Shown here one piece after another: positions 1 through 18,505 of a stretch of 21,096 bases of DNA; within the stretch, counting starts at the first letter, position 1; every line of letters starts with the position of its first letter. A model generated the notes under the pieces. That model was not told the DNA's origin, ran no database searches, and worked only from the letters and a program-made list of their open reading frames with translations. This DNA comes from a virus. A program made the position numbers and the translations under genes. The DNA is taken from the IMG/VR virus record IMGVR_UViG_3300026116_000108, positions 1-21,096 of that record; one strand, given 5' to 3'.

Positions 1-488
1 CGCAAGACAAGAGTAAACATGCCCTCCACGGTGATTTTTTCGTCCAGCATTCTGCCGATGGTTTTTGCCTTAACTCGTCCACTATCGCTAGTATCACTGT
101 GAGAAAGGATGTAAACGCGGACATCAGAAGCAAGGCCCCCGGCAGCCACGAGAATATTCCAAGCATTTCTACCTATCTCCGTAAACTTGTCGTATCCACG
201 TTCTTCGCTCCTGCGCATGAACTCATTTGCCATGACATACTGAAAATCATCAATGACAATGATCTTGCGCTTGGTCTTCTGCATCAACGTTACGATCTCA
301 GGCGCTTTATCGGTAACAAAGATGTTACCTTTCTTTGCCTCCATATCAAACTTCTTCCAGCTTGCTGACCTAAACGGCAATGGCTTTTCTAGTGCCTGAA
401 TAAGCAGCACATCCTCAGGCGAGAACTTCTCAAGAGACGTGGACTTGCCGCTACCAGTTTCACCTAATACCAGAGTGGCTATGCTCAT
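1..488 (-). CDS. P-loop ATPase, AAA_24/Sak4-like candidate (C-terminus cut by window edge)
   Basis: The reading frame opens at the ATG at 488 and stays open to base 1, so only about 162 N-terminal residues are visible. A Walker A motif, GETGSGKS, lies at residues 9-16. A Walker B strand, KIIVIDDFQ, lies near residue 80 and is followed by a stretch ending in YILSHSD, which looks like the sensor region of RecA-like ATPases. Small phage P-loop proteins of this kind (Pfam AAA_24, including Sak4-type single-strand annealing recombinases) often sit beside an exonuclease, as here. The start overlaps the stop of the upstream gene by ATGA (485-488), so translation is probably coupled. The P-loop assignment is firm. 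The recombinase role is inferred from family and neighbours, and a helicase loader or another ATPase role remains possible. Confidence 0.8.
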   Translation of the reverse strand, partial: MSIATLVLGETGSGKSTSLEKFSPEDVLLIQALEKPLPFRSASWKKFDMEAKKGNIFVTDKAPEIVTLMQKTKRKIIVIDDFQYVMANEFMRRSEERGYDKFTEIGRNAWNILVAAGGLASDVRVYILSHSDTSDSGRVKAKTIGRMLDEKITVEGMFTLVL

Positions 489-7661: not shown

Positions 7662-8129
7662 ATGGGCGGAAGAAAAGCTAAATACACGACCCGCATTGCC
7701 AAGCGTATATGCGAGCACATCGCATTGGGTGCTACGCTGCATCAGGCGCTTGCCAAGGAGCCCTTAGGGCCTTCTGTGCCTATGTTTTGGCGTTGGCTGG
7801 ATGAGTATCCTGAGTTTCGGGAGATGTACGAGAGGGCGCGTGTGTTGCAGGCGGATTTGATGTGCGACACCATTATGGTGATGGCTGAGAACGTGTTGAA
7901 GCAACCGCGTTTTGCGGCGGCGTACAAGGTGGCGGCGGACATCCTGAAGTGGCAAGCGGAGATCAGAAATCCGGCGCGCTACGGCTCGAAGGTGACGGTA
8001 GAGCATAAGGCGACTCTAGACCCGGCGAAGATGAAGAAAGAGATCATGCAGCTTGAGAAAGAGCTTGGATTGCTGGGCATGGAGGAGCGAACGATTGATG
8101 CGGAGATAGTGGAGGCCAAGGGTGAGTAA
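7662..8129 (+). CDS. terS: Terminase small subunit (Sf6-like)
   Basis: This 155-residue protein is expected to recognise phage DNA and to bring it to the large terminase. The N-terminal half is the DNA-binding type: RIAKRICEHIALGATLHQAL, followed by an aromatic-rich segment (PMFWRWLDEYPEFREMYERA) that resembles the Sf6/P22-like small terminase. The helical C-terminal part ends with acidic residues. I chose the ATG at 7662, with GGGGG at four bases. The frame extends upstream to 7614 without a ribosome site. The gene overlaps the large-subunit start by 8 bp, the usual pairing. Confidence 0.9.
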   Translation: MGGRKAKYTTRIAKRICEHIALGATLHQALAKEPLGPSVPMFWRWLDEYPEFREMYERARVLQADLMCDTIMVMAENVLKQPRFAAAYKVAADILKWQAEIRNPARYGSKVTVEHKATLDPAKMKKEIMQLEKELGLLGMEERTIDAEIVEAKGE

Positions 8130-9570
8130 GAAGGACGAAGGTATTGACCACGCCCGGCTGGCAAAGCTTAAGCGCTTAAAGGAGTTGAAGCGCCACTACA
8201 GCATGTTTTTCTATAAGCCCTACCCTAAGCAGATGGAGTTCCATAGGGCGGGCGCATCCTTCCGTGAGCGCTTGTTTATGGCGGGCAACCGCTTGGGCAA
8301 GACCTACTCAGGAGGCTACGAGGTGGCTTACCACGTCACCGGCTTATACCCGGAATGGTGGGATGGCTACGTGTCGCACAAAGCGACACGTGGTTGGGTT
8401 GGCTCCGTGACCTCCGAACTTACGCGGGACGGCGCGCAGCGTATTTTGCTTGGCCCGGTTGGCCAGTGGGGCACGGGCTGCATTCCCAAGGAATGCATTG
8501 TCGATATCAAGCGGGCGCGTGGCGTCCCTGACGCCGTTGAGACAGTGCTGGTGCGGCACATGGCCTCCGGGGATATTTCGCAGATTACCTTCAAAGCGTA
8601 TTCGGACGGGCGGGAGTCATGGCAGGCGGAGGAGTTGGACTTCATTTGGATGGATGAGGAACCGCCGGAGGATATCTACATTGAAGGTATCACCAGAACG
8701 AATAACACCATGGGGCCGGTGTTTCTGACATTCACGCCGCTTATGGGTATGTCGGGCGTGGTCATGCGTTTCATAGGCGAGCAGCACCGTGACAGGCATG
8801 TCACGAACATGACCATTGACGATGTGGGCCACTATACGCCGGAGCAGAAGCGCATCATTATTGACGCATATCCCGAGCACGAGCGAGAGGCGCGTACCAA
8901 GGGCGTGCCGATGCTGGGGGAGGGGCGTATTTTCCCTGTGGCTGAGGAAGTTATTGTGGAATCTCCGCTTGCGGTGATTCCGAAGCATTGGAAGCAAATA
9001 GTGGGGCTTGATATTGGTTGGGATCACCCTACGGCGGCGGCGCGCTTGGTTATTGATCCAGATACCGATGTTGTGCATTTGGTGAATGAGTACCGGCAGC
9101 GCAAGGAGATTCCTATTGTGCATGCCTCTGCCATTAAGCCCTGGGGGCCGTGGATACCCGTAGCGTGGCCGCGCGACGCCCTGCAGCATGATAAGGGCGG
9201 CTCTTGCGAGCAGATTGCTAAGCAGTACCAGGACGCGGGCTTGCGCATGCTTTCCGAACCCGCAGGGTTCGGGGACAAGCGTGGTTATGGTGTGGAGGCA
9301 GGTATTGCGGAGATGCTTCAGCGGATGCGCACAGGGCGTTGGAAGGTGGATGTTAATTGCCGGTTGTGGCTGGAAGAGTTTCGCATGTATCACCGGAAGA
9401 AGGGAGCCGATGGCTCCCTGCAGGTGGTGAAGGAACGGGAAGACCTTATCTGCGCCAGCAGATATGCGACGATGATGTTGCGGTATGCATTACCGCAGGA
9501 ATGGGCACCTATCCCGCCGGATAGGTATTCGAGGATGTCGAGAGGTGGGGCCTCTTGGATGAGTGCTTAA
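8122..9570 (+). CDS. terL: Terminase large subunit (ATPase and nuclease)
   Basis: This is the 482-residue packaging motor, which pumps DNA into the capsid and cuts the concatemer. The N-terminal ATPase has Walker A GNRLGKT (55-61), Walker B LDFIWMDEE (about 172-180) and the coupling motif TFTPLMG (203-209). The C-terminal RNase H-fold nuclease has GLDIGWD (295-301), RD (351-352) and a late acidic motif at Asp441 (DLICASRYA). The length and motif layout match Sf6/P22-like large terminases. It starts at a GTG overlapping the small-terminase end. Confidence 0.95.
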   Translation: MSKKDEGIDHARLAKLKRLKELKRHYSMFFYKPYPKQMEFHRAGASFRERLFMAGNRLGKTYSGGYEVAYHVTGLYPEWWDGYVSHKATRGWVGSVTSELTRDGAQRILLGPVGQWGTGCIPKECIVDIKRARGVPDAVETVLVRHMASGDISQITFKAYSDGRESWQAEELDFIWMDEEPPEDIYIEGITRTNNTMGPVFLTFTPLMGMSGVVMRFIGEQHRDRHVTNMTIDDVGHYTPEQKRIIIDAYPEHEREARTKGVPMLGEGRIFPVAEEVIVESPLAVIPKHWKQIVGLDIGWDHPTAAARLVIDPDTDVVHLVNEYRQRKEIPIVHASAIKPWGPWIPVAWPRDALQHDKGGSCEQIAKQYQDAGLRMLSEPAGFGDKRGYGVEAGIAEMLQRMRTGRWKVDVNCRLWLEEFRMYHRKKGADGSLQVVKEREDLICASRYATMMLRYALPQEWAPIPPDRYSRMSRGGASWMSA

Positions 9571-9579
9571 AGGAGCAGC

Positions 9580-9876
9580 ATGGATCACAAAGTTAAAGCG
9601 AATTGGCGCAGGCTGGTTGACGGACAAGGCCGGAAAGTGCGGGCGTTGAACATCCACGTGCCGCAGGATCACCCCCAAGTGAAGCGGTACCCGTTGACGC
9701 ACCAGTATATGAAGGCGTTTTACCTGTCCACTTCTGCAGGAAGTATTAACAACTCGCGCAATTGGCGGCTAGATCAGTTCTTAGTGGTGGATACCGGCTC
9801 GAAAATTTCGGCGGTTGATAGACAAGTGGCGAATTTTTGGAAGTTAAACACATCAGCTAGTGCAGGAGCAGCTTAA
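9580..9876 (+). CDS. Hypothetical 98-residue protein between terminase and methyltransferase
   Basis: I do not recognise this protein. The ATG at 9580 has AGGAGC upstream. It is basic at the N-terminus (MDHKVKANWRRLVDGQGRK) and contains aromatic and Ser/Asn-rich stretches, ending in a Ser/Ala tail. It overlaps the methyltransferase start by one base (TAATG). Its position would fit a packaging or head accessory, or the first member of the modification cassette. Nothing in the sequence decides this. Confidence 0.7.
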   Translation: MDHKVKANWRRLVDGQGRKVRALNIHVPQDHPQVKRYPLTHQYMKAFYLSTSAGSINNSRNWRLDQFLVVDTGSKISAVDRQVANFWKLNTSASAGAA

Positions 9877-10613
9877 TGAATCTTGAGGAATACCAGCAAA
9901 TTCAGCCCCATGTAAAGGCCCATGGCTTGACTTGGCTTGTTCCGAACACGCATTGCGCGTGGCGCGTGGACTCGTTGATGGAAAAAGAGCCTGATACGGT
10001 GGCTTGGATCGAGAAAATGGGTGAAGGCGACGTGCTTTTCGATGTTGGCGCTAATATTGGTCAATATGCGATGTTGGCTGCAAAGAGAGGTGTTTTTGTG
10101 CATGCATTCGAGCCAGAAAGTCAAAATTTTGCGCTCTTGTGCCGCAATGTAGCCGTCAACGAATTGAACAAAAACCTGCGTGTTTGGCCTATTGCGCTGG
10201 CAGATCAGCCCGGATTGCACACGTTTTACGTGCAGTCGCTCATTCCGGGTAATTCCTGCAATACCTTAGGACAGAAGACCGACTACAACCTCAAACCCAA
10301 GGACAATTGGGGCTTCGAGCAAGGCTGCGGGGCCATGACGTTGGACTTTTTTGCGGATACTTTCGGCCCGCCGACGCATATCAAGCTGGACGTGGATGGC
10401 TTGGAGCATAAGGTGCTCCTGGGCGCGATTCGTCACATGAAAAACGTGAAAAGTGTGTTGGTGGAGACCAATTACAACCTCCCTGAACACCAGATTTTCG
10501 ACCTCTACATGCAGGAGCACGGGCTTTTTCCGGATGAGGAAACGGCGGAGAGGGCAAAGCGCACGGAAGGAGCGTTTAAGGACATTGGCAACCGCATTTA
10601 TTACAGAAAATGA
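9876..10613 (+). CDS. FkbM-family SAM-dependent methyltransferase
   Basis: This 245-residue enzyme is expected to transfer a methyl group from S-adenosylmethionine, often to a hydroxyl of a sugar or polyketide in this family. Motif I is FDVGANIGQ (55-63), with the ribose-binding acidic residue in HAFEPE (76-81). The later motif IKLDVDGLE (169-177) is typical of FkbM proteins, and a final strand carries VKSVLVETNYN. The phage substrate is unknown. It is the first enzyme of a tightly joined cassette with two 2OG/Fe(II) oxygenases. The stop overlaps the following start (ATGA). Nothing indicates a DNA methylase (no DPPY or PC motif). Confidence 0.9.
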   Translation: MNLEEYQQIQPHVKAHGLTWLVPNTHCAWRVDSLMEKEPDTVAWIEKMGEGDVLFDVGANIGQYAMLAAKRGVFVHAFEPESQNFALLCRNVAVNELNKNLRVWPIALADQPGLHTFYVQSLIPGNSCNTLGQKTDYNLKPKDNWGFEQGCGAMTLDFFADTFGPPTHIKLDVDGLEHKVLLGAIRHMKNVKSVLVETNYNLPEHQIFDLYMQEHGLFPDEETAERAKRTEGAFKDIGNRIYYRK

Positions 10614-11218
10614 CAAAGCGAAATCCTTGTGTTTGGGCCTCTCAGAACCCTCGCATTGCTCTCTTCACTAACTTTTTGTCGGATGAGGAGTGCAACTATC
10701 TGATTGAGCTATCTGAGCCGCGCATGATCCGCTCCACCGTTGTCGTAGACAATGATGAGCCTGACGCGGTGCATGATGGACGCACCTCAAGCGGCTGCTG
10801 TATCGAGCGAGGGGAGACGGCGCGCATCACCGCTATTGAGAGGCGGTTGGCGCAGCTAACCGGCACGCCTCTTGAGAATGGTGAAGGGCTGCAGGTGTTG
10901 CGGTATGAAGAAGGGCAACACTACTTGCCGCATCACGACTATTTCGACCCTGGCGTTGGCGGTTATATGAAGTACCTGGAGCGCGGCGGGCAGCGCACGC
11001 ACACGTGCATCATGTACCTGTCGGACGAGTTCGAGCAGGGGGAAACGGAGTTTCCACTTCTGAGGTGCGTTGTGCCTCCTCGCAAGGGTTCCGTACTGGT
11101 GTTTTGCAATATTACGCCTGAAGGTAGGTTAGATGAGCAAACTCTGCACGGCGGCAGGCCGCCGGTAGGTGGTGTGAAGTGGATTGCAACGAAGTGGATT
11201 AGACAGAGGGTTTTCTAA
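10610..11218 (+). CDS. Prolyl-4-hydroxylase-like 2OG/Fe(II) oxygenase
   Basis: This 202-residue enzyme belongs to the P4Hc type of 2-oxoglutarate/Fe(II) oxygenases, which hydroxylate proline or related residues. The iron ligands are H108-x-D110 (LPHHDYF) and the distal His180 (TLHGGRPP). Lys190 (VGGVKWIATKW) is positioned to bind 2-oxoglutarate. DGRTSSGC near residues 56-63 and VLRYEEGQHY (96-105) match the family. The length is usual for a stand-alone domain. It overlaps its neighbours on both sides by 1-4 bp. The substrate is unknown; polyproline tracts in the later surface proteins are candidates. Confidence 0.9.
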   Translation: MTKRNPCVWASQNPRIALFTNFLSDEECNYLIELSEPRMIRSTVVVDNDEPDAVHDGRTSSGCCIERGETARITAIERRLAQLTGTPLENGEGLQVLRYEEGQHYLPHHDYFDPGVGGYMKYLERGGQRTHTCIMYLSDEFEQGETEFPLLRCVVPPRKGSVLVFCNITPEGRLDEQTLHGGRPPVGGVKWIATKWIRQRVF

Positions 11219-11907
11219 TGAGCGATGTGAATGTTGAAGGGCATGTGCTGTATTCGTTGCGCAATGCGCGGGTTAATCCCTGGCCTTTTCCGCACTTTTA
11301 TGCGGAGAATGTCTTTCCGGACGAGACTTACTGGAAGATATACGACTACGTAAGCAAGAAGGGAGCGGAGGAGTACACACAAAGTAAGAACAACTACAAC
11401 GGGCGTCTTTTTGCCAAAGATACCGATGAAGACATTACGTTCTTGGGCCTGGATTTCTTGAAATCCGAGGACTTTTTGCGGCATGTGGTGAAGATTTTCC
11501 GTGACGAGTTTTCTATGCGGTTTACGGATTATACCCGCGTCAAATTAAGCAATGATCTGCGCTTGATTCGCGACGGCAGGGATTACTCGATTGGCCCGCA
11601 CACCGACGCGCCGCATAAGGTGGTGAGCATGTTGTTTTACCTGCCTTTAGATGGTTGGAACCACGACTGCGGCACAAGTATTTACCTGCCGAAGGATCGT
11701 AGCTTTCGCTGCGCGGGCGGCCCGCATCGTAAGTTCGAGGACTTCGACAAGATCTTCACAGCACCCTTCCTGCCGAATACTTGCTTAGGCTTTTTCAAGA
11801 CGGATTACAGCTTCCACGGGGTGGAGAAAATAGAAAAGGATTTTCAGCGGGACGTGCTTCTGTACAATGTTTATCATGGAAACATAAACTCTCTGTCATC
11901 TGAATAA
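11218..11907 (+). CDS. Second 2OG/Fe(II)-dependent oxygenase
   Basis: This 229-residue protein is a different 2OG/Fe(II) oxygenase, not a duplicate of its neighbour. The metal triad appears as H128-x-D130 (IGPHTDAPH) and His200 (SFHGVEK), with Arg211 (FQRDVLLYN) placed for 2-oxoglutarate. The strand after the HxD is VVSMLFYLPL, as in the double-stranded beta-helix fold. Similar enzymes are frequent in aquatic phages. Their substrates, which may be glycans, proteins or nucleic acid, are mostly unknown. The start overlaps the previous stop (TAATG). It ends 21 bp before the portal gene, which has its own strong ribosome site. Confidence 0.85.
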   Translation: MSDVNVEGHVLYSLRNARVNPWPFPHFYAENVFPDETYWKIYDYVSKKGAEEYTQSKNNYNGRLFAKDTDEDITFLGLDFLKSEDFLRHVVKIFRDEFSMRFTDYTRVKLSNDLRLIRDGRDYSIGPHTDAPHKVVSMLFYLPLDGWNHDCGTSIYLPKDRSFRCAGGPHRKFEDFDKIFTAPFLPNTCLGFFKTDYSFHGVEKIEKDFQRDVLLYNVYHGNINSLSSE

Positions 11908-11928: not shown

Positions 11929-14157
11929 ATGGCTAATAACGAGGACTTTATCGACCAAGCAAACCGACGCTTTCGCGCCGCGAATGACTTCTTAGCGTCC
12001 TGGCGCGCCGAAGCGCGGGACGATTTTGCGTTCGTGGCGGGGCAGCAGTGGACGCCGGAAGATGAAGCCATTCTGAATGAACAGCGTCGCCCTCCCATTA
12101 CCTTCAACTACAGCGAGAAGATGATCGACGCGGTGATTGGTGCGGAGGTCAGTAACAGGCAAGAAACCTCGTTTCTGCCGAGGGGCATTGAAGATGCGGG
12201 ATTGGCGGACTTATGGAATGCGGCGGCGAAGTACGTACGGGAGGAGTGTAATGCGGATGATGAAGAAAGCGATGCGTTTCGTGACGCGCTCATTTGCGGC
12301 ATTGGCTGGACCTGGACGCGTTTGGATTATGATCGCGATCTTGACGGCCTTGTGGATATATCTCGTATTGACCCCCTCGAAATGAGCTACGACCCGGCTG
12401 CAACTAAGCCGGGGCTTACTGACCGTCGATGGAATGACCGAGAATGGTGGGTGGACGACGAAGAGGTAAGGCGTCGGTGGCCGGATGCTATTCCATCGCA
12501 GGCAAGTGACGATCCTGGGCGCGGCGTGGTGCGGCGCGGCATGCGCTATGCGGATGACGACACTTCCGAGTTCGAGCGGCACGAAGGGCAATCCAAGATT
12601 CGCTTGCATGAGTATTGGCAGATGGAGGATGTCTATCGTGTGGCGGTGGGCGGGCAACTTCATGAGGTTGACAAGAAGACGCTTGCACAGATTAAGGAGC
12701 AGATGCCTGATGTGCAGTCCGCCAAGCAGAAGAAGCGTGTGTATTACCGCGCATGGTTCATGGGCGAGACACTGCTTCAGGGACCTGAAAGGTCCCCTAC
12801 GCAGAAGGGTTTCACCTTCAACCCTATCACTTGCAAGCGCGACCGCAACAAGGGGACGTGGTACGGATTAACCCGTGTGATGAAAGACCCGCAGCGTTGG
12901 GCCAACAAGTGGTTATCGCAGATTCTGCATATCATCAACACCAACGCCAAGGGCGGCATCTTGGTGGAGTTGGGCGCTGTGGTTGATCCCGAGCGCTTTA
13001 AAGAAGAGTGGGCACAGCCGGATAGCGTCTCGCTGCTGAATGAGGGCGCGCTGTCCCAGAAGAAGGTCATGCCCAAGCCTCCAGCCCCGTACCCGACTGG
13101 CTTGGACAAGCTAATGACCTTCGCGCTTGACTCCCTGCCAATGGTCACCGGCATCAACCTGGAGGCGCTTGGCCTTGCCAATAGGGATCAGGCCGGGGTT
13201 GTGGAAAGCCAGCGCAAACAGGCGGCATACGGCCTTCTTAGCCCAATGTTTAACGCGCTGCGCAACTATCGCAAGACGCAAGGGCGCGTGCTTTTGGACT
13301 TTATCCAAAACTATATTGCCGATGGGCGCTTGATTCGCATTGGCGGGCCGGAGTCACAGCAGTTCCTGCCGTTGACCAAGCAGGATGGCGCGGCCAATTA
13401 CGATGTCATTGTTGACCAGTCCCCGAATGCACCAGACACCAAGGACAAGACGTGGCAGGCCCTTGGAGACTTGATTCCGGCCATGTTGAAGGCGCAAGTT
13501 CCTGTGCCGCCTGACGTGCTGGATTACGCACCTATCCCGACTGCGTTAGCGGTTAAGTGGAAGCAATTCATTGGGCAGCAGATGCAGATGCAGCAGGAGA
13601 TGCAAGACCAGATGAATCAACTCCAAGAAGAAAACAACCAGCTCAAGAGCGACCAACAGGTCAAGATGCAGGAGATGGACTTGGAGCGCCAAAAGATGCA
13701 ACAAGAACTGCAGATAGAGTGGCAGCAGACGCAAGCCAAGATGAAGATGGAAGCGGATGCGCATGCGCAGAAGATGCAGTTGGAGCGCGCCAAAGCGCAG
13801 TCCCAATTCGAGTTGGAGTCCTTCAAACAGGATCGCCAATTCGAGCTGGAAGGGCGGCGTATGCAGCATGAAAACAATATGAAGCAGCAGCAAGTGGACA
13901 ATGACTTCAAGGTGAAGGCGTTTACAGCTGGCGTCAAAGCGGACGACGCTGGCAAGTTCCAAATTGACGTCAACACCGGCGAAATAGGCGACCTTGTGAA
14001 CCAGTTCGCACAAGCCTCCCAGCAAATGGCGCAGCAGGCGCAAGCCTCGCAACAAGCCACCTTGCAGGCTATTGCGCAGCTTACACAGGCGCTTACCAAG
14101 CCGCGCATGCTGCAATATGACCAGTCCGGCAGGCCAGTGGGGAGCACGGTGCAATGA
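11929..14157 (+). CDS. Portal protein, P22-like, with long Gln-rich coiled coil
   Basis: This 742-residue protein forms the dodecameric DNA gateway at one capsid vertex, where the terminase docks. The N-terminal half is of the P22-portal type, with an acidic DDEESDAFRDAL region, then GWTWTRLDYD and the DP-L-E-M-SYDP pattern. A long central region includes GTWYGLTRVMKDPQRWANK. From about residue 544 to 668 the protein is a long Gln/Met/Glu-rich coiled coil, like a P22 barrel. The extreme C-terminus reads QALTKPRMLQYDQSGRPVG. P22 portal has 725 residues, so the length fits. The ribosome site GGGAGGG precedes the ATG. The following gene overlaps by ATGA. Confidence 0.93.
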   Translation: MANNEDFIDQANRRFRAANDFLASWRAEARDDFAFVAGQQWTPEDEAILNEQRRPPITFNYSEKMIDAVIGAEVSNRQETSFLPRGIEDAGLADLWNAAAKYVREECNADDEESDAFRDALICGIGWTWTRLDYDRDLDGLVDISRIDPLEMSYDPAATKPGLTDRRWNDREWWVDDEEVRRRWPDAIPSQASDDPGRGVVRRGMRYADDDTSEFERHEGQSKIRLHEYWQMEDVYRVAVGGQLHEVDKKTLAQIKEQMPDVQSAKQKKRVYYRAWFMGETLLQGPERSPTQKGFTFNPITCKRDRNKGTWYGLTRVMKDPQRWANKWLSQILHIINTNAKGGILVELGAVVDPERFKEEWAQPDSVSLLNEGALSQKKVMPKPPAPYPTGLDKLMTFALDSLPMVTGINLEALGLANRDQAGVVESQRKQAAYGLLSPMFNALRNYRKTQGRVLLDFIQNYIADGRLIRIGGPESQQFLPLTKQDGAANYDVIVDQSPNAPDTKDKTWQALGDLIPAMLKAQVPVPPDVLDYAPIPTALAVKWKQFIGQQMQMQQEMQDQMNQLQEENNQLKSDQQVKMQEMDLERQKMQQELQIEWQQTQAKMKMEADAHAQKMQLERAKAQSQFELESFKQDRQFELEGRRMQHENNMKQQQVDNDFKVKAFTAGVKADDAGKFQIDVNTGEIGDLVNQFAQASQQMAQQAQASQQATLQAIAQLTQALTKPRMLQYDQSGRPVGSTVQ

Positions 14158-14390
14158 GCATCATGCAATCCACAAATGAGGTTCAGAGCAACCTCAAGCA
14201 AGCTATCCAGACGCTTCTGGAGTCTCAATACAACCTAATGCAAATTTCGCAACAAGGGAACACTGCGTTTGCGGCGGCGCTTTCGCAACTGGCGCAGGCC
14301 ATCACTGCGCCGCGCACCCTGATCAATGATGCCAACGGGAACCCTGTTGGCGTGTCTTATCAATCCACCCAAGGAAGTCAGAATGTCTGA
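14154..14390 (+). CDS. 78-residue protein that duplicates the portal C-terminal tail
   Basis: The gene starts at an ATGA overlap with the portal. Its last part reads QAITAPRTLINDANGNPVG, aligning with the portal end QALTKPRMLQYDQSGRPVG. Over the 29 aligned residues I count 15 identities. The N-terminal 40 residues are a helical Gln-rich stretch, again like the portal tail. It is therefore likely to be a duplicated and detached piece of the portal C-terminus, perhaps a plug, adaptor or assembly factor. The role is inferred. The stop overlaps the scaffold start. Confidence 0.75.
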   Translation: MSIMQSTNEVQSNLKQAIQTLLESQYNLMQISQQGNTAFAAALSQLAQAITAPRTLINDANGNPVGVSYQSTQGSQNV

Positions 14391-15270
14391 TGGTTTAACG
14401 CCTGATGAAATCAAGTTCTTCGAGACCGGCGACGCCTCCGTGTTGGGTTTATCGGGCGATGCTCCTGCCCCTGCCTCTGCACCTGTTGAATCGCCTGCGC
14501 CTAGCCCAGTACCTGAACCGGCACCGGCTCCTGCACCCCCTCCAGTAGAGGACACCCGAGCTCAGCAATTGGCGCAGGAACAAGCGTACCGTGCCCAATT
14601 GGAGGCGCAACTGCGGGCGATTAACGAGCGTCTGGAGCAAGCTACAAAGCCGCCCCCACCGCCGCCGAAGGTTGCGCCGGATCCTGCGCAAGACCCGTAC
14701 GGCCATCTGATGCACGAGATCAACAGCATCAAGGAAGCCTTGACCGGCATCAGCCAGCGCACGGAAGCCGAGCAGCAGCAGTACGCGCAGCAACAACAGT
14801 TCTTGGCGCTGAAAACCAAGGTGGAGACAGCGCGCAACGATTTCATGAAGAATACGCCGGACTTCCAAGAAGCCTATCAGCACCTGCGGAATGCTCGAGC
14901 GCAGGACTATCGGGACGTAGGAATTGCGGAGGAACGTATTCCCGAGGCGCTATTGACGGATGAGTTGGCGGTGTCGCAGAACGCGCTTAAGCAGGGCAAA
15001 AATCCTGCGGAGGTGGTCTATAACATGGCCAAGCGCTACGGCTACACACCGAAGGCGGCAGCGCCTGCTGCAGTTGACCCGGCTAAGCGCGTAGAGCAGA
15101 TTATTGCGGGCCAGAAGGCTGCGGACGTGCCGCCGCGGGGCGCGCCGACCGGCGAGATTACGCTTTCCTCGCTGAAGGATGCTTCGGAGGCGGATTTGAA
15201 CAAGGTGGCGCTGGACGACAAGCTGTGGAGCAAAATTGTCGGCGGCGGCAAAAACGACATCTTCGGGTAA
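14383..15270 (+). CDS. Head scaffolding protein (predicted)
   Basis: This 295-residue protein is acidic and Pro/Ala-rich at the N-terminus (SPAPSPVPEPAPAPAPPPVE), with a helical, Gln-rich middle and a PPPPPP stretch (TKPPPPPPKVAP). Its position after the portal, its low complexity and its predicted helical content are typical of scaffolding proteins that guide capsid assembly and then leave. The C-terminus (LWSKIVGGGKNDIFG) would be the coat-binding end by analogy. I chose the ATG at 14383, with AAGGAAG upstream, over the frame opening at 14326. No protease motif is seen. Confidence 0.75.
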   Translation: MSDGLTPDEIKFFETGDASVLGLSGDAPAPASAPVESPAPSPVPEPAPAPAPPPVEDTRAQQLAQEQAYRAQLEAQLRAINERLEQATKPPPPPPKVAPDPAQDPYGHLMHEINSIKEALTGISQRTEAEQQQYAQQQQFLALKTKVETARNDFMKNTPDFQEAYQHLRNARAQDYRDVGIAEERIPEALLTDELAVSQNALKQGKNPAEVVYNMAKRYGYTPKAAAPAAVDPAKRVEQIIAGQKAADVPPRGAPTGEITLSSLKDASEADLNKVALDDKLWSKIVGGGKNDIFG

Positions 15271-15671: not shown

Positions 15672-16127
15672 ATGGCTTTTTTTGGCAACTCTGTGCAACC
15701 GGCTGCGCCCGGCACGACCAATGATGTTTTAACGCTCACGTCTGCCAATGGCCGTAAGCTTCGGCTGGTGGAGTTGTCAGTTTGCGGCCTCGGCACTTCC
15801 AGCGCCGCCAATGAGTTGGGGGTAAAGCGCCCGGGGCAACTTGGCTCCACGCCCACCAACCAAGCCAGTATCCCGTTAGACCCTGACTGCGGTTCTTGCA
15901 GCGCCACGGTGGCCACCGGGTGGACCACGCAGCCTTCCTTGGGCACGGTGGCTATGCTGCGCCTGGGCTGCAACAGCAACGGGGCGATTTATCGTTGGGT
16001 GGCTACGCCGGGCATGGAGATTACCTGCCGGGGCGATTCATTGACCACGCATGCGTGCCTTTCGTTCCGCTTCACTACTGGCGGCGCAGGGCCGATGGGC
16101 GTTCACATCGTCTTTGAGGAATTGTAA
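15672..16127 (+). CDS. Predicted virion structural protein, 151 residues
   Basis: A ribosome site (AAGGGATAAG) precedes the ATG. The protein is Gly/Thr/Ser-rich and probably all-beta, beginning MAFFGNSVQPAAPGTTNDVL. It contains KLRLVELSVCGLGTSSAANE, patterns familiar from phage decoration or fibre-like proteins, and has five Cys. It overlaps the GH16 protein start by one base (TAATG). It could be a head decoration, a head-tail adaptor or a tail-surface protein. I favour a surface protein because of its composition and its neighbours. Confidence 0.65.
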   Translation: MAFFGNSVQPAAPGTTNDVLTLTSANGRKLRLVELSVCGLGTSSAANELGVKRPGQLGSTPTNQASIPLDPDCGSCSATVATGWTTQPSLGTVAMLRLGCNSNGAIYRWVATPGMEITCRGDSLTTHACLSFRFTTGGAGPMGVHIVFEEL

Positions 16128-18505
16128 TGCCTATCATTGACCCGACCACGCCTTCGGGCGTGCAGCCGGTTGGCTTCGGCTCCGGCTTCACGCTCATTAT
16201 GTCCGATGAGTTTAACAGCACGGGACTCGATAACAAATGGAACAACGCACACGATTTTGGGAACTATGGTTCTACTAGCGCTTGGGACGTCAACAACAGC
16301 AACAATTCCTGCTTGCGCATGTGGTACAACGGCGCTGGAGGTGGCACGCCGTCTAACCAGATGTTTGGCTCCAACGGAGCCGCACGCGGTGGGCAGTCCT
16401 GGCGGGGCCGGTTTGGCTATTACGAGGCGCGCATTCAATGCATACGCGGGCGCGGCTTCTTCCCCGGCTTCTGGTTGTATCCGCTTTCCGACGGCAACGG
16501 CGAGAATGGCGACGGCAGCCAGCAAGAGATCGACATCGATGAGTGGTTTTCCTATGAAAATGGGGATTGGCTTGTTGATACCAGCGCCTTCCGTTGCAAG
16601 AACTCGTCCTTCACCATTTGGACAGAAGGCGGGGGCGGCAGCACTAACCAAGCAGGGCACTTAAGCTTCACCAACACACGTGGCTACGACACTACCGTCA
16701 GCACGCAATTCCACACGTATGCCATGTATTGGGCCTCCTCTGGCGGCCTGAAGTGGTACTACGATGGCAATCTCCTGGGCACCATTAACGACCCCTGGGG
16801 TGCTGGCAACAACATGCAACTGGTGTTGTTCCTGCAGCTTTGGTGGGGCCCTGGCGGAGGTAATCCTACGCCGGACGGCAACACACCGCAGGGTTCCAGC
16901 AATAGCATGATCTTTGATTATGTGCGGGTGTGGAGCATTGCGGGCTCTCCGAGTCCTGCGCCGCCTCCGCCACCGCCGCCGCCCTTTAGCGCATCGCTCA
17001 CTACTGCACCAACGGATGGCGCTACTATCAGCGGTACTGTCAACTTCCAAATCGACGGCCAAGGCATTAAGAATGCCGAGCTGCTGCCGGCGACTGGCTA
17101 CACGCCCAGCTACGGCACCTTCACGTTGTCCAACAACGGTGCGCACGGCGACTTCAACTGGAACACAACCAATGTCGCCAACGGGCCAATAAGCGTACGC
17201 ATCTCCGCGTTTGACCAAGCGGCAGGCGTATCGCCTGCCAATGAGATAGTGGCGATGGCGTCGCGTACCTACAACGTCAACAACTCGCCATCGTCACCAC
17301 CTCCGCCGCCACCACCTCCGGGAACGTTAGTTTGGCCGTACGGACGCAACAGTTCCGGCTTTGACAACATGACCTTCTACGACGAGTTCGATTCCGGCAC
17401 CACGCCGGATACCTCGCGGTGGACAAATCATTACTACTACGAGGCAAGCAACTCCACGGTCAACTATGACGTGAACGGCGGCTATCTGCGCATTTGGCCC
17501 AAGGTGGATGGCTCCAACAACTTTTTCAACCGTGTGTTCACGACAGAAAACTTCTTTACGCAGCAATATGGGTACTTCGAGGTACGCGCACAGTTGGATC
17601 ACGGCGATGGCTTACATCCGGTCATCGGCATTATTGGGAACAACAACAAAGATGTTGGGTACATGCATGCCTATGGGAACGCACCGTCCGGCGGTTGGAC
17701 TTCTGGCACGGCTGTCATCGATTATGCGTGCGCTGTTTTCGATATTCCCACACAGACCTTTAACTTCGACACTCGGCCCGGCACTGCTGCCCTTGGTGGA
17801 GCTAACTTAGCAAACAGCTTCCATTACTACGCATGTGAGTGGACACCCAACAATATCCGCTTCTTCTACGATGGCACGCAGGTAGAAGAGTGCGTAATTA
17901 GCGTCACCGGCCAGTTCTACCCCTATGTAGGGCTGGCGATGCAAACCAACGAGACTACGGCCAACACCACCGGCACGCCGCAAGGCACAGCCAATGCCAT
18001 GCTAGTAGATTATGTTCACGTTTGGACGCTGCATAACAACGCCAACTCTGTGCCCGGCACCTCTGCGCCAGCGCCGTTTGGTATCACGCAGGTAACTGCT
18101 CCGCCGGACGGCGCAAGCATTTCCGGGGTGGTGGCCTTCCGTGTAGAAGGCAACCTTTTGGCAAACGTGGAGCTGCTACCGGCAACTGGTTACACGCCTA
18201 TTTATGGGCAGTTTTCGCTTTCCTCAGGCAACACGGTGGCCGAGCTCAACTGGAGTTCTACTGCGGTGGCCAACGGAGCTATTCAGGTGCGCATCTCCGC
18301 GTTTGACCATAGCGCAGGGCAGGCAGCTAGTGAATTGGTTGCCATGCAGCCGCGCACCTACTACCTCAACAACACGGCAGCGCCTCCGGGGCCTGCTCCT
18401 ACACCTACGCCAGTACCGCCGCCTCCGCCAACAGATCGCGGGCTGCAATACCTTTATTCGGAACTCCTTGGCCGCTTGCCTTGGATTAGGCGCGGGCGGC
18501 GGTAA
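16127..18505 (+). CDS. GH16 tail enzyme with two GH16-fold domains (one without the catalytic motif) and Ig-like domains
   Basis: This 792-residue surface protein probably degrades or binds the host's polysaccharide coat. Residues 1-272 form a GH16 domain with the acid motif EIDIDE (134-139; Glu134 nucleophile and Glu139 acid/base by family rule) and the GFWLYP substrate strand. An Ig-like domain follows (about 292-385) after a polyproline linker. A second GH16-fold domain (about 400-640) keeps the YGYFEVRAQ and FHYYACEWTPNNIRFFYDG landmarks but has GNNNKDVGYMH where the acids should be, so it is probably non-catalytic. A second Ig-like domain (about 656-749) and a Pro-rich C-terminal segment complete it. 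The substrate (laminarin-, agar- or xyloglucan-like) cannot be told. Overlaps its upstream neighbour by TAATG. Confidence 0.9.
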   Translation: MPIIDPTTPSGVQPVGFGSGFTLIMSDEFNSTGLDNKWNNAHDFGNYGSTSAWDVNNSNNSCLRMWYNGAGGGTPSNQMFGSNGAARGGQSWRGRFGYYEARIQCIRGRGFFPGFWLYPLSDGNGENGDGSQQEIDIDEWFSYENGDWLVDTSAFRCKNSSFTIWTEGGGGSTNQAGHLSFTNTRGYDTTVSTQFHTYAMYWASSGGLKWYYDGNLLGTINDPWGAGNNMQLVLFLQLWWGPGGGNPTPDGNTPQGSSNSMIFDYVRVWSIAGSPSPAPPPPPPPPFSASLTTAPTDGATISGTVNFQIDGQGIKNAELLPATGYTPSYGTFTLSNNGAHGDFNWNTTNVANGPISVRISAFDQAAGVSPANEIVAMASRTYNVNNSPSSPPPPPPPPGTLVWPYGRNSSGFDNMTFYDEFDSGTTPDTSRWTNHYYYEASNSTVNYDVNGGYLRIWPKVDGSNNFFNRVFTTENFFTQQYGYFEVRAQLDHGDGLHPVIGIIGNNNKDVGYMHAYGNAPSGGWTSGTAVIDYACAVFDIPTQTFNFDTRPGTAALGGANLANSFHYYACEWTPNNIRFFYDGTQVEECVISVTGQFYPYVGLAMQTNETTANTTGTPQGTANAMLVDYVHVWTLHNNANSVPGTSAPAPFGITQVTAPPDGASISGVVAFRVEGNLLANVELLPATGYTPIYGQFSLSSGNTVAELNWSSTAVANGAIQVRISAFDHSAGQAASELVAMQPRTYYLNNTAAPPGPAPTPTPVPPPPPTDRGLQYLYSELLGRLPWIRRGRR
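17078..17217 (+). repeat. First copy of intragenic Ig-domain repeat
   Basis: Bases 17078-17106 match 18170-18198 at 26 of 29 positions, and the 20-base block CGCATCTCCGCGTTTGACCA (17198-17217) recurs exactly at 18290-18309. The two Ig-like domains are a fairly recent internal duplication. Confidence 0.7.
18170..18309 (+). repeat. Second copy of intragenic Ig-domain repeat
   Basis: Partner of 17078-17217; see there for the exact match. The spacing between copies is about 1.09 kb, so recombination between them would delete the second GH16-fold domain in frame. Confidence 0.7.

Follow-up and report, generated by a model that had tools for sequence, protein, structure and literature searches.

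An FkbM-family methyltransferase and a diverged oxygenase of the 2OG-Fe(II) class, denoted here Ox2, are encoded together next to the packaging genes throughout a clade of phages represented by the IMG/VR record IMGVR_UViG_3300026116_000108 (21,096 bases; this whole stretch is hereinafter referred to as the window). In phages, genes for oxygenases and FkbM methyltransferases are mostly classed as stray auxiliary genes without known use, whereas in this case one oxygenase–methyltransferase pair constitutes a clade-wide core module, and bacterial operons and natural gene fusions provide independent evidence that FkbM and Ox2 cooperate. We propose, albeit tentatively, that the pair is a two-step tailoring unit whose enzymes act on the same substrate, the likeliest candidate being a virion protein or a sugar carried by such a protein. 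In the window, the pair is interrupted by a gene for a prolyl-4-hydroxylase-type oxygenase (P4H), which sequence comparison identifies as a private addition of this lineage.

Organization of the locus

All genes of the locus are carried by the plus strand. The gene for the large terminase subunit (TerL; 8122..9570; PF03237 and PF17289) is followed by a 98-aa ORF of unassigned function (9580..9876), homologues of which were found only in near-identical copies of the window and which overlaps the start of the FkbM gene by 1 base. The genes for the SAM-dependent FkbM methyltransferase (9876..10613; 245 aa) and P4H (10610..11218; 202 aa) overlap by 4 bases (ATGA), those for P4H and Ox2 (11218..11907; 229 aa) by 1 base (TAATG), and a P22-type portal protein is encoded immediately downstream (11929..14157; PF16510, E 1.1e-102). 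A preliminary description of the locus, based on the nucleotide sequence, had depicted three enzymes with visible catalytic residues, joined by stop-start overlaps and wedged between terminase and portal, and this picture was borne out: the ORF check upheld the trio at 9876-11907, the overlaps are as given above, the profile matches of the flanking genes confirm the position, and the catalytic residues are intact in all three proteins. The trio is not a chance arrangement because near-identical copies are present in three other contigs and strong purifying selection is evident. At the start of the window, an early region in the reverse orientation includes a gene for a Sak4-like ssDNA annealing protein (3-488, minus strand; phrog_2872, E 2e-61).

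Three enzymes of known superfamilies

Each of the three proteins belongs to a known superfamily. The product of 9876..10613 is a firm member of the FkbM family, with scores well above the curated thresholds of PF05050 (E 7.8e-11; 42.8 bits versus a cut-off of 22.7) and TIGR01444 (78 bits versus 37.7), and is predicted to transfer a methyl group to a hydroxyl or possibly an amide. Its SAM loop reads DVGANIGQY, and residues D56, G58, A59, G62 and E79 are invariant in 15 of 15 sequences, in agreement with the D-x-G-A-x-x-G loop signature.

The first oxygenase matches PF13640 (E 6.5e-15), and its closest solved structure is the algal prolyl-4-hydroxylase 2jig (E 4e-45), with nearly full-length alignment. 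H108-x-D110, H180 and K190, corresponding to the HxD...H motif and the 2OG-binding Lys, are conserved in phage homologues. The earlier assignment of this protein to the prolyl-4-hydroxylase type is thus supported by the domain, the structure and the motif, and hydroxylation of proline is its predicted activity.

The second oxygenase had been credited with its own H-x-D...H and Arg set, and this set (H128-x-D130, H200 and R211) proved invariant in 22/22 phage homologues; the HxD...H motif and the C-terminal Arg are likewise retained in each of the 22 sequences of a broader alignment that included bacterial relatives. Ox2 is predicted to be a diverged 2OG-Fe(II) oxygenase. The window protein itself yields no Pfam match at E<=1, with 12 of 14 family members weakly matching PF13640 (best E 4.7e-5), and profile searches of solved structures retrieved a single weak relative, the 'putative hydroxylase' 9blq. 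Comparison of Ox2 with the P4H set using hhalign, with both alignments being shallow, gave no sign of close kinship between the two oxygenases (probability 0.1). The window Ox2 also weakly matches phrog_1644, annotated as 'minor coat protein' (E 1.3e-6), which would fit a structural minor coat protein that has lost its enzymatic activity. This reading is extremely improbable, given that just 2 of 14 family members match phrog_1644, that the four catalytic residues are invariant across 22 phages and the bacterial relatives, and that Ox2 is fused to FkbM elsewhere, which argues against a purely structural role.

The FkbM–Ox2 pair is inherited with the packaging genes

Scans of viral contigs, a phage collection and bacterial genomes identified 22 distinct loci of the clade, including one in the complete podovirus MW202512, and all 22 encode both FkbM and Ox2 upstream of the portal protein, FkbM always being the first. 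The pair adjoins the terminase gene wherever the contig reaches that far; a single contig among the 22 starts downstream of that gene. According to motif reading, FkbM and Ox2 are separated in one locus (L016:3496-6007) by three ORFs, of which two are small and the third encodes a 561-aa surface-type protein containing a PAPxPAP linker, and HNH-like ORFs are located 5' of FkbM in two others (L030 and L037). The Ox2 gene of MW202512.1 (L008:7250-7990; about 36,400-37,150, minus strand) is unannotated in the GenBank record, in which a small ORF overlapping its start bears the odd name 'sercA1a'.

Phylogenetic analysis places the clade on one branch in the trees of both FkbM (support 100/99) and Ox2 (97/94), and the main subgroups match between the two trees. 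Pairwise identities of FkbM, Ox2, terminase and portal co-vary (FkbM-TerL, r 0.87; Ox2-FkbM, r 0.75), with none of 2000 permutations reaching the observed correlation in a Mantel test of the identity matrices. Among terminase relatives outside the clade, the pair was not found downstream of the terminase. The simplest history compatible with these comparisons is a single gain of the pair in the ancestor of the clade, followed by inheritance together with the packaging genes. Where synonymous sites are unsaturated, dN/dS ranges from 0.04 to 0.14, indicative of strong purifying selection. Presence in 22/22 loci sets the pair apart from morons and auxiliary metabolic genes, which are recognized by patchy presence.

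Operons, fusions and the probable substrate

Association of the two genes extends beyond the clade. Profile searches detected FkbM directly upstream of Ox2, abutting or overlapping it, in 22 of 47 non-redundant bacterial loci of the Ox2 family, with the pairs encoded mostly in Betaproteobacteria and other Pseudomonadota; about 40% of the bacterial loci, mostly the more distant ones, have no FkbM nearby. In four of the 47 bacterial loci and in seven other viral contigs, FkbM and Ox2 are joined in one ORF. The domain order in the viral fusions examined is MptE-like, class I methyltransferase, FkbM and Ox2, as in the ~900-aa phage proteins L143:3796-6624, L144:3919-6633 and L161:3745-6621, which include the MptE-like domain DUF115; the first of these genes is located upstream of a portal gene and the last just 3' of a head-decoration PHROG match. 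A phage with a P22-type portal outside the clade carries FkbM and Ox2 just downstream of the portal gene (L155:2730-6705).

The fusions together with the conserved gene order are strong evidence that FkbM and Ox2 share one substrate, on the nature of which the genomic context provides mixed clues. Mechanistically, Ox2 would activate a C-H bond using Fe(II), O2 and 2-oxoglutarate, and FkbM would move a methyl group from SAM onto a hydroxyl. Oxidation followed by methylation is a plausible order, with the reverse fitting the sequences equally well. Within the clade, the two genes belong to the core of the packaging/head operon, and the likeliest target of their products would be a virion component, either a side chain of a structural protein or a sugar attached to it.

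The main alternative is that the pair oxidizes and O-methylates a host surface glycan (LPS, capsule, exopolysaccharide or flagellar glycan), thereby altering the receptor or excluding competitors. The neighbourhoods of relatives offer some support for such a target. Enzymes encoded beside the pair, or beside Ox2, in these relatives are often sugar enzymes, which would be more in keeping with a glycan than with an unglycosylated protein: genes for GDP-mannose dehydratase, DegT aminotransferase and pyruvyl transferase adjoin some phage relatives, and the neighbours in some bacterial loci include TPR, GT41 and GT8-like genes and, in one case, fliD. A radical SAM/SPASM gene is also among the bacterial neighbours. 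The addition of the MptE-like domain and a second methyltransferase in the fusions points in the same direction, as does the occurrence of FkbM genes in flagellin glycosylation islands (PMC4875605). A GH16 protein encoded in the window is also compatible with a glycan target. Nevertheless, genes that alter receptors usually occur sporadically and are tied to particular hosts, unlike this pair, which is retained at all clade loci observed and shares the evolution of the terminase and portal genes. Furthermore, the pair of Burkholderiales is an isolated two-gene unit outside any recognizable glycan cluster. Neither the window nor six sister records encode GT2, GT4 or MptE-like proteins, so that the clade podoviruses tested do not seem to build a glycan by means of such enzymes. 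Modification of a host glycan appears possible but somewhat unlikely.

Phage DNA or a nucleotide might also be considered as the target, since packaging genes adjoin the trio and some 2OG enzymes act on DNA. Neither P4H nor Ox2 resembles the DNA-base-modifying 2OG families in the libraries searched, a kinase or nucleotide enzyme does not accompany the trio, and sugar or TPR genes form the context elsewhere. We reject this reading as very unlikely.

P4H is a lineage-specific insertion

The distribution of P4H is strikingly different from that of the pair. The gene was found only in the window and in three closely matching contigs (98-99.7% identity across most of each contig); neither the 11 sister IMG/VR records examined (several of which are fragments, three being 44-48 kb long) nor the complete MW202512 carries it. 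Such patchiness among close relatives is characteristic of a moron. Neither FkbM nor Ox2 is encoded close to any of the other viral P4H relatives detected, and P4H was not found at other Ox2 loci. A pathway shared by P4H and the pair finds no support in this separate occurrence, which the preliminary description had specified in advance as refuting evidence. The check that it suggested, a search of other phages for the three genes side by side, showed FkbM and Ox2 linked in all clade loci and P4H accompanying them exclusively in the window lineage.

The same description suggested a single pathway in which all three enzymes act on one target. The stop-start overlaps linking all three genes, purifying selection on FkbM, P4H and Ox2, and the placement of P4H exactly between the other two would be in line with this scheme. 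By contrast, P4H is missing from the sister phages examined and its viral relatives occur apart from the pair, which renders a three-enzyme pathway unlikely; the part of the proposal that stands is a shared pathway of FkbM and Ox2, supported by adjacency, co-inheritance and natural fusions. Under our preferred two-enzyme reading, the insertion of P4H between FkbM and Ox2 would have occurred later and kept the operon translationally coupled.

The P4H gene is not decaying but evolves under strong purifying selection, as judged from comparison of the window (10610-11215) with contig L004: the two copies differ at 62 nucleotide positions but only at one residue. Given that the adjoining terminase genes are identical, the P4H segment seems to recombine among close relatives, and this tract likely originates from such an exchange.

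P4H most probably acts independently of the pair, hydroxylating Pro-rich linkers in structural or tail proteins of its own lineage. Its likeliest substrates would be the poly-Pro linkers of three proteins encoded downstream, each on the plus strand. The first, of 314 aa (14326..15270), is a probable scaffold, judging from its position, with the Pro-rich runs PAPSPVPEPAPAPAPPPV and PPPPPPK. The second (16127..18505) has two GH16-type stretches (PF00722, E 3.5e-17) connected through poly-Pro linkers, with three Pro runs; it is possibly virion-borne, binding or degrading polysaccharide, and the sister record behind L130 encodes a 42% relative. The third, a putative minor tail protein whose gene runs off the end of the contig (18506..21094; phrog_553, E 1.9e-9), has poly-Pro linkers with another three runs. 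Eight Pro runs in the 21 kb of the window compare with 2, 0, 0 and 0, both in one protein, in four sister genomes lacking P4H (about 182 kb), a comparison that concerns a single P4H lineage and sisters carrying different tail genes and hence is best regarded as a lead. A comparison of P4H-bearing viral loci with terminase-only loci revealed no clear excess of Pro runs (6 runs, all in 1/15 loci, versus 2/17 loci) or of G-x-y repeats. Collagen-like G-x-y repeats are absent from the window and were rejected as substrate.

Implications and relation to known systems

In the literature searched, in which subscription journals were thinly covered, no description was encountered of FkbM–Ox2 as a clade-wide core module in phages that has counterparts in bacterial operons and fusions, and searches on FkbM and oxygenases in podoviruses, phage hydroxyproline and YhhC returned nothing relevant. 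The module makes the function of phage 2OG oxygenases testable, with shifts of +14/+16/+30 Da predicted on virion proteins, and P4H predicts hydroxyproline in phage poly-proline linkers. A bolder proposal, that the clade depends on obligate oxidation and O-methylation of a virion protein by FkbM–Ox2, to which one lineage added virion hydroxyproline through P4H, strikes us as doubtful.

In a RiPP pathway, the FkbM protein EreM and the 2OG enzyme EreI act on one peptide (PMC9259500), a precedent for the joint action proposed here; the window protein belongs to the same family as EreM, scoring above the curated cut-offs. The curated family nearest to Ox2 is YhhC (NF041706), a 2OG oxygenase of cyclophane-containing peptides, to which 9 of 22 Ox2 members show weak similarity; equivalence to YhhC was rejected, the score of 22.8 bits being far below the NF041706 cut-off of 150. 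P4H resembles the prolyl 4-hydroxylases 2jig and 3itq/5hv0, with near end-to-end alignment and the HxD...H...K motif, but unlike these is encoded inside a phage packaging operon. It also matches phrog_61 (E 1.5e-21), which comprises 2OG-Fe(II) oxygenases from large phages, cyanophages among them, although no viral P4H relative found adjoins FkbM or Ox2. Finally, in contrast to known FkbM systems, the FkbM protein of the window is devoid of a surrounding biosynthetic cluster and is instead consistently paired with Ox2, its gene belonging to the clade core and lying between those for terminase and portal.
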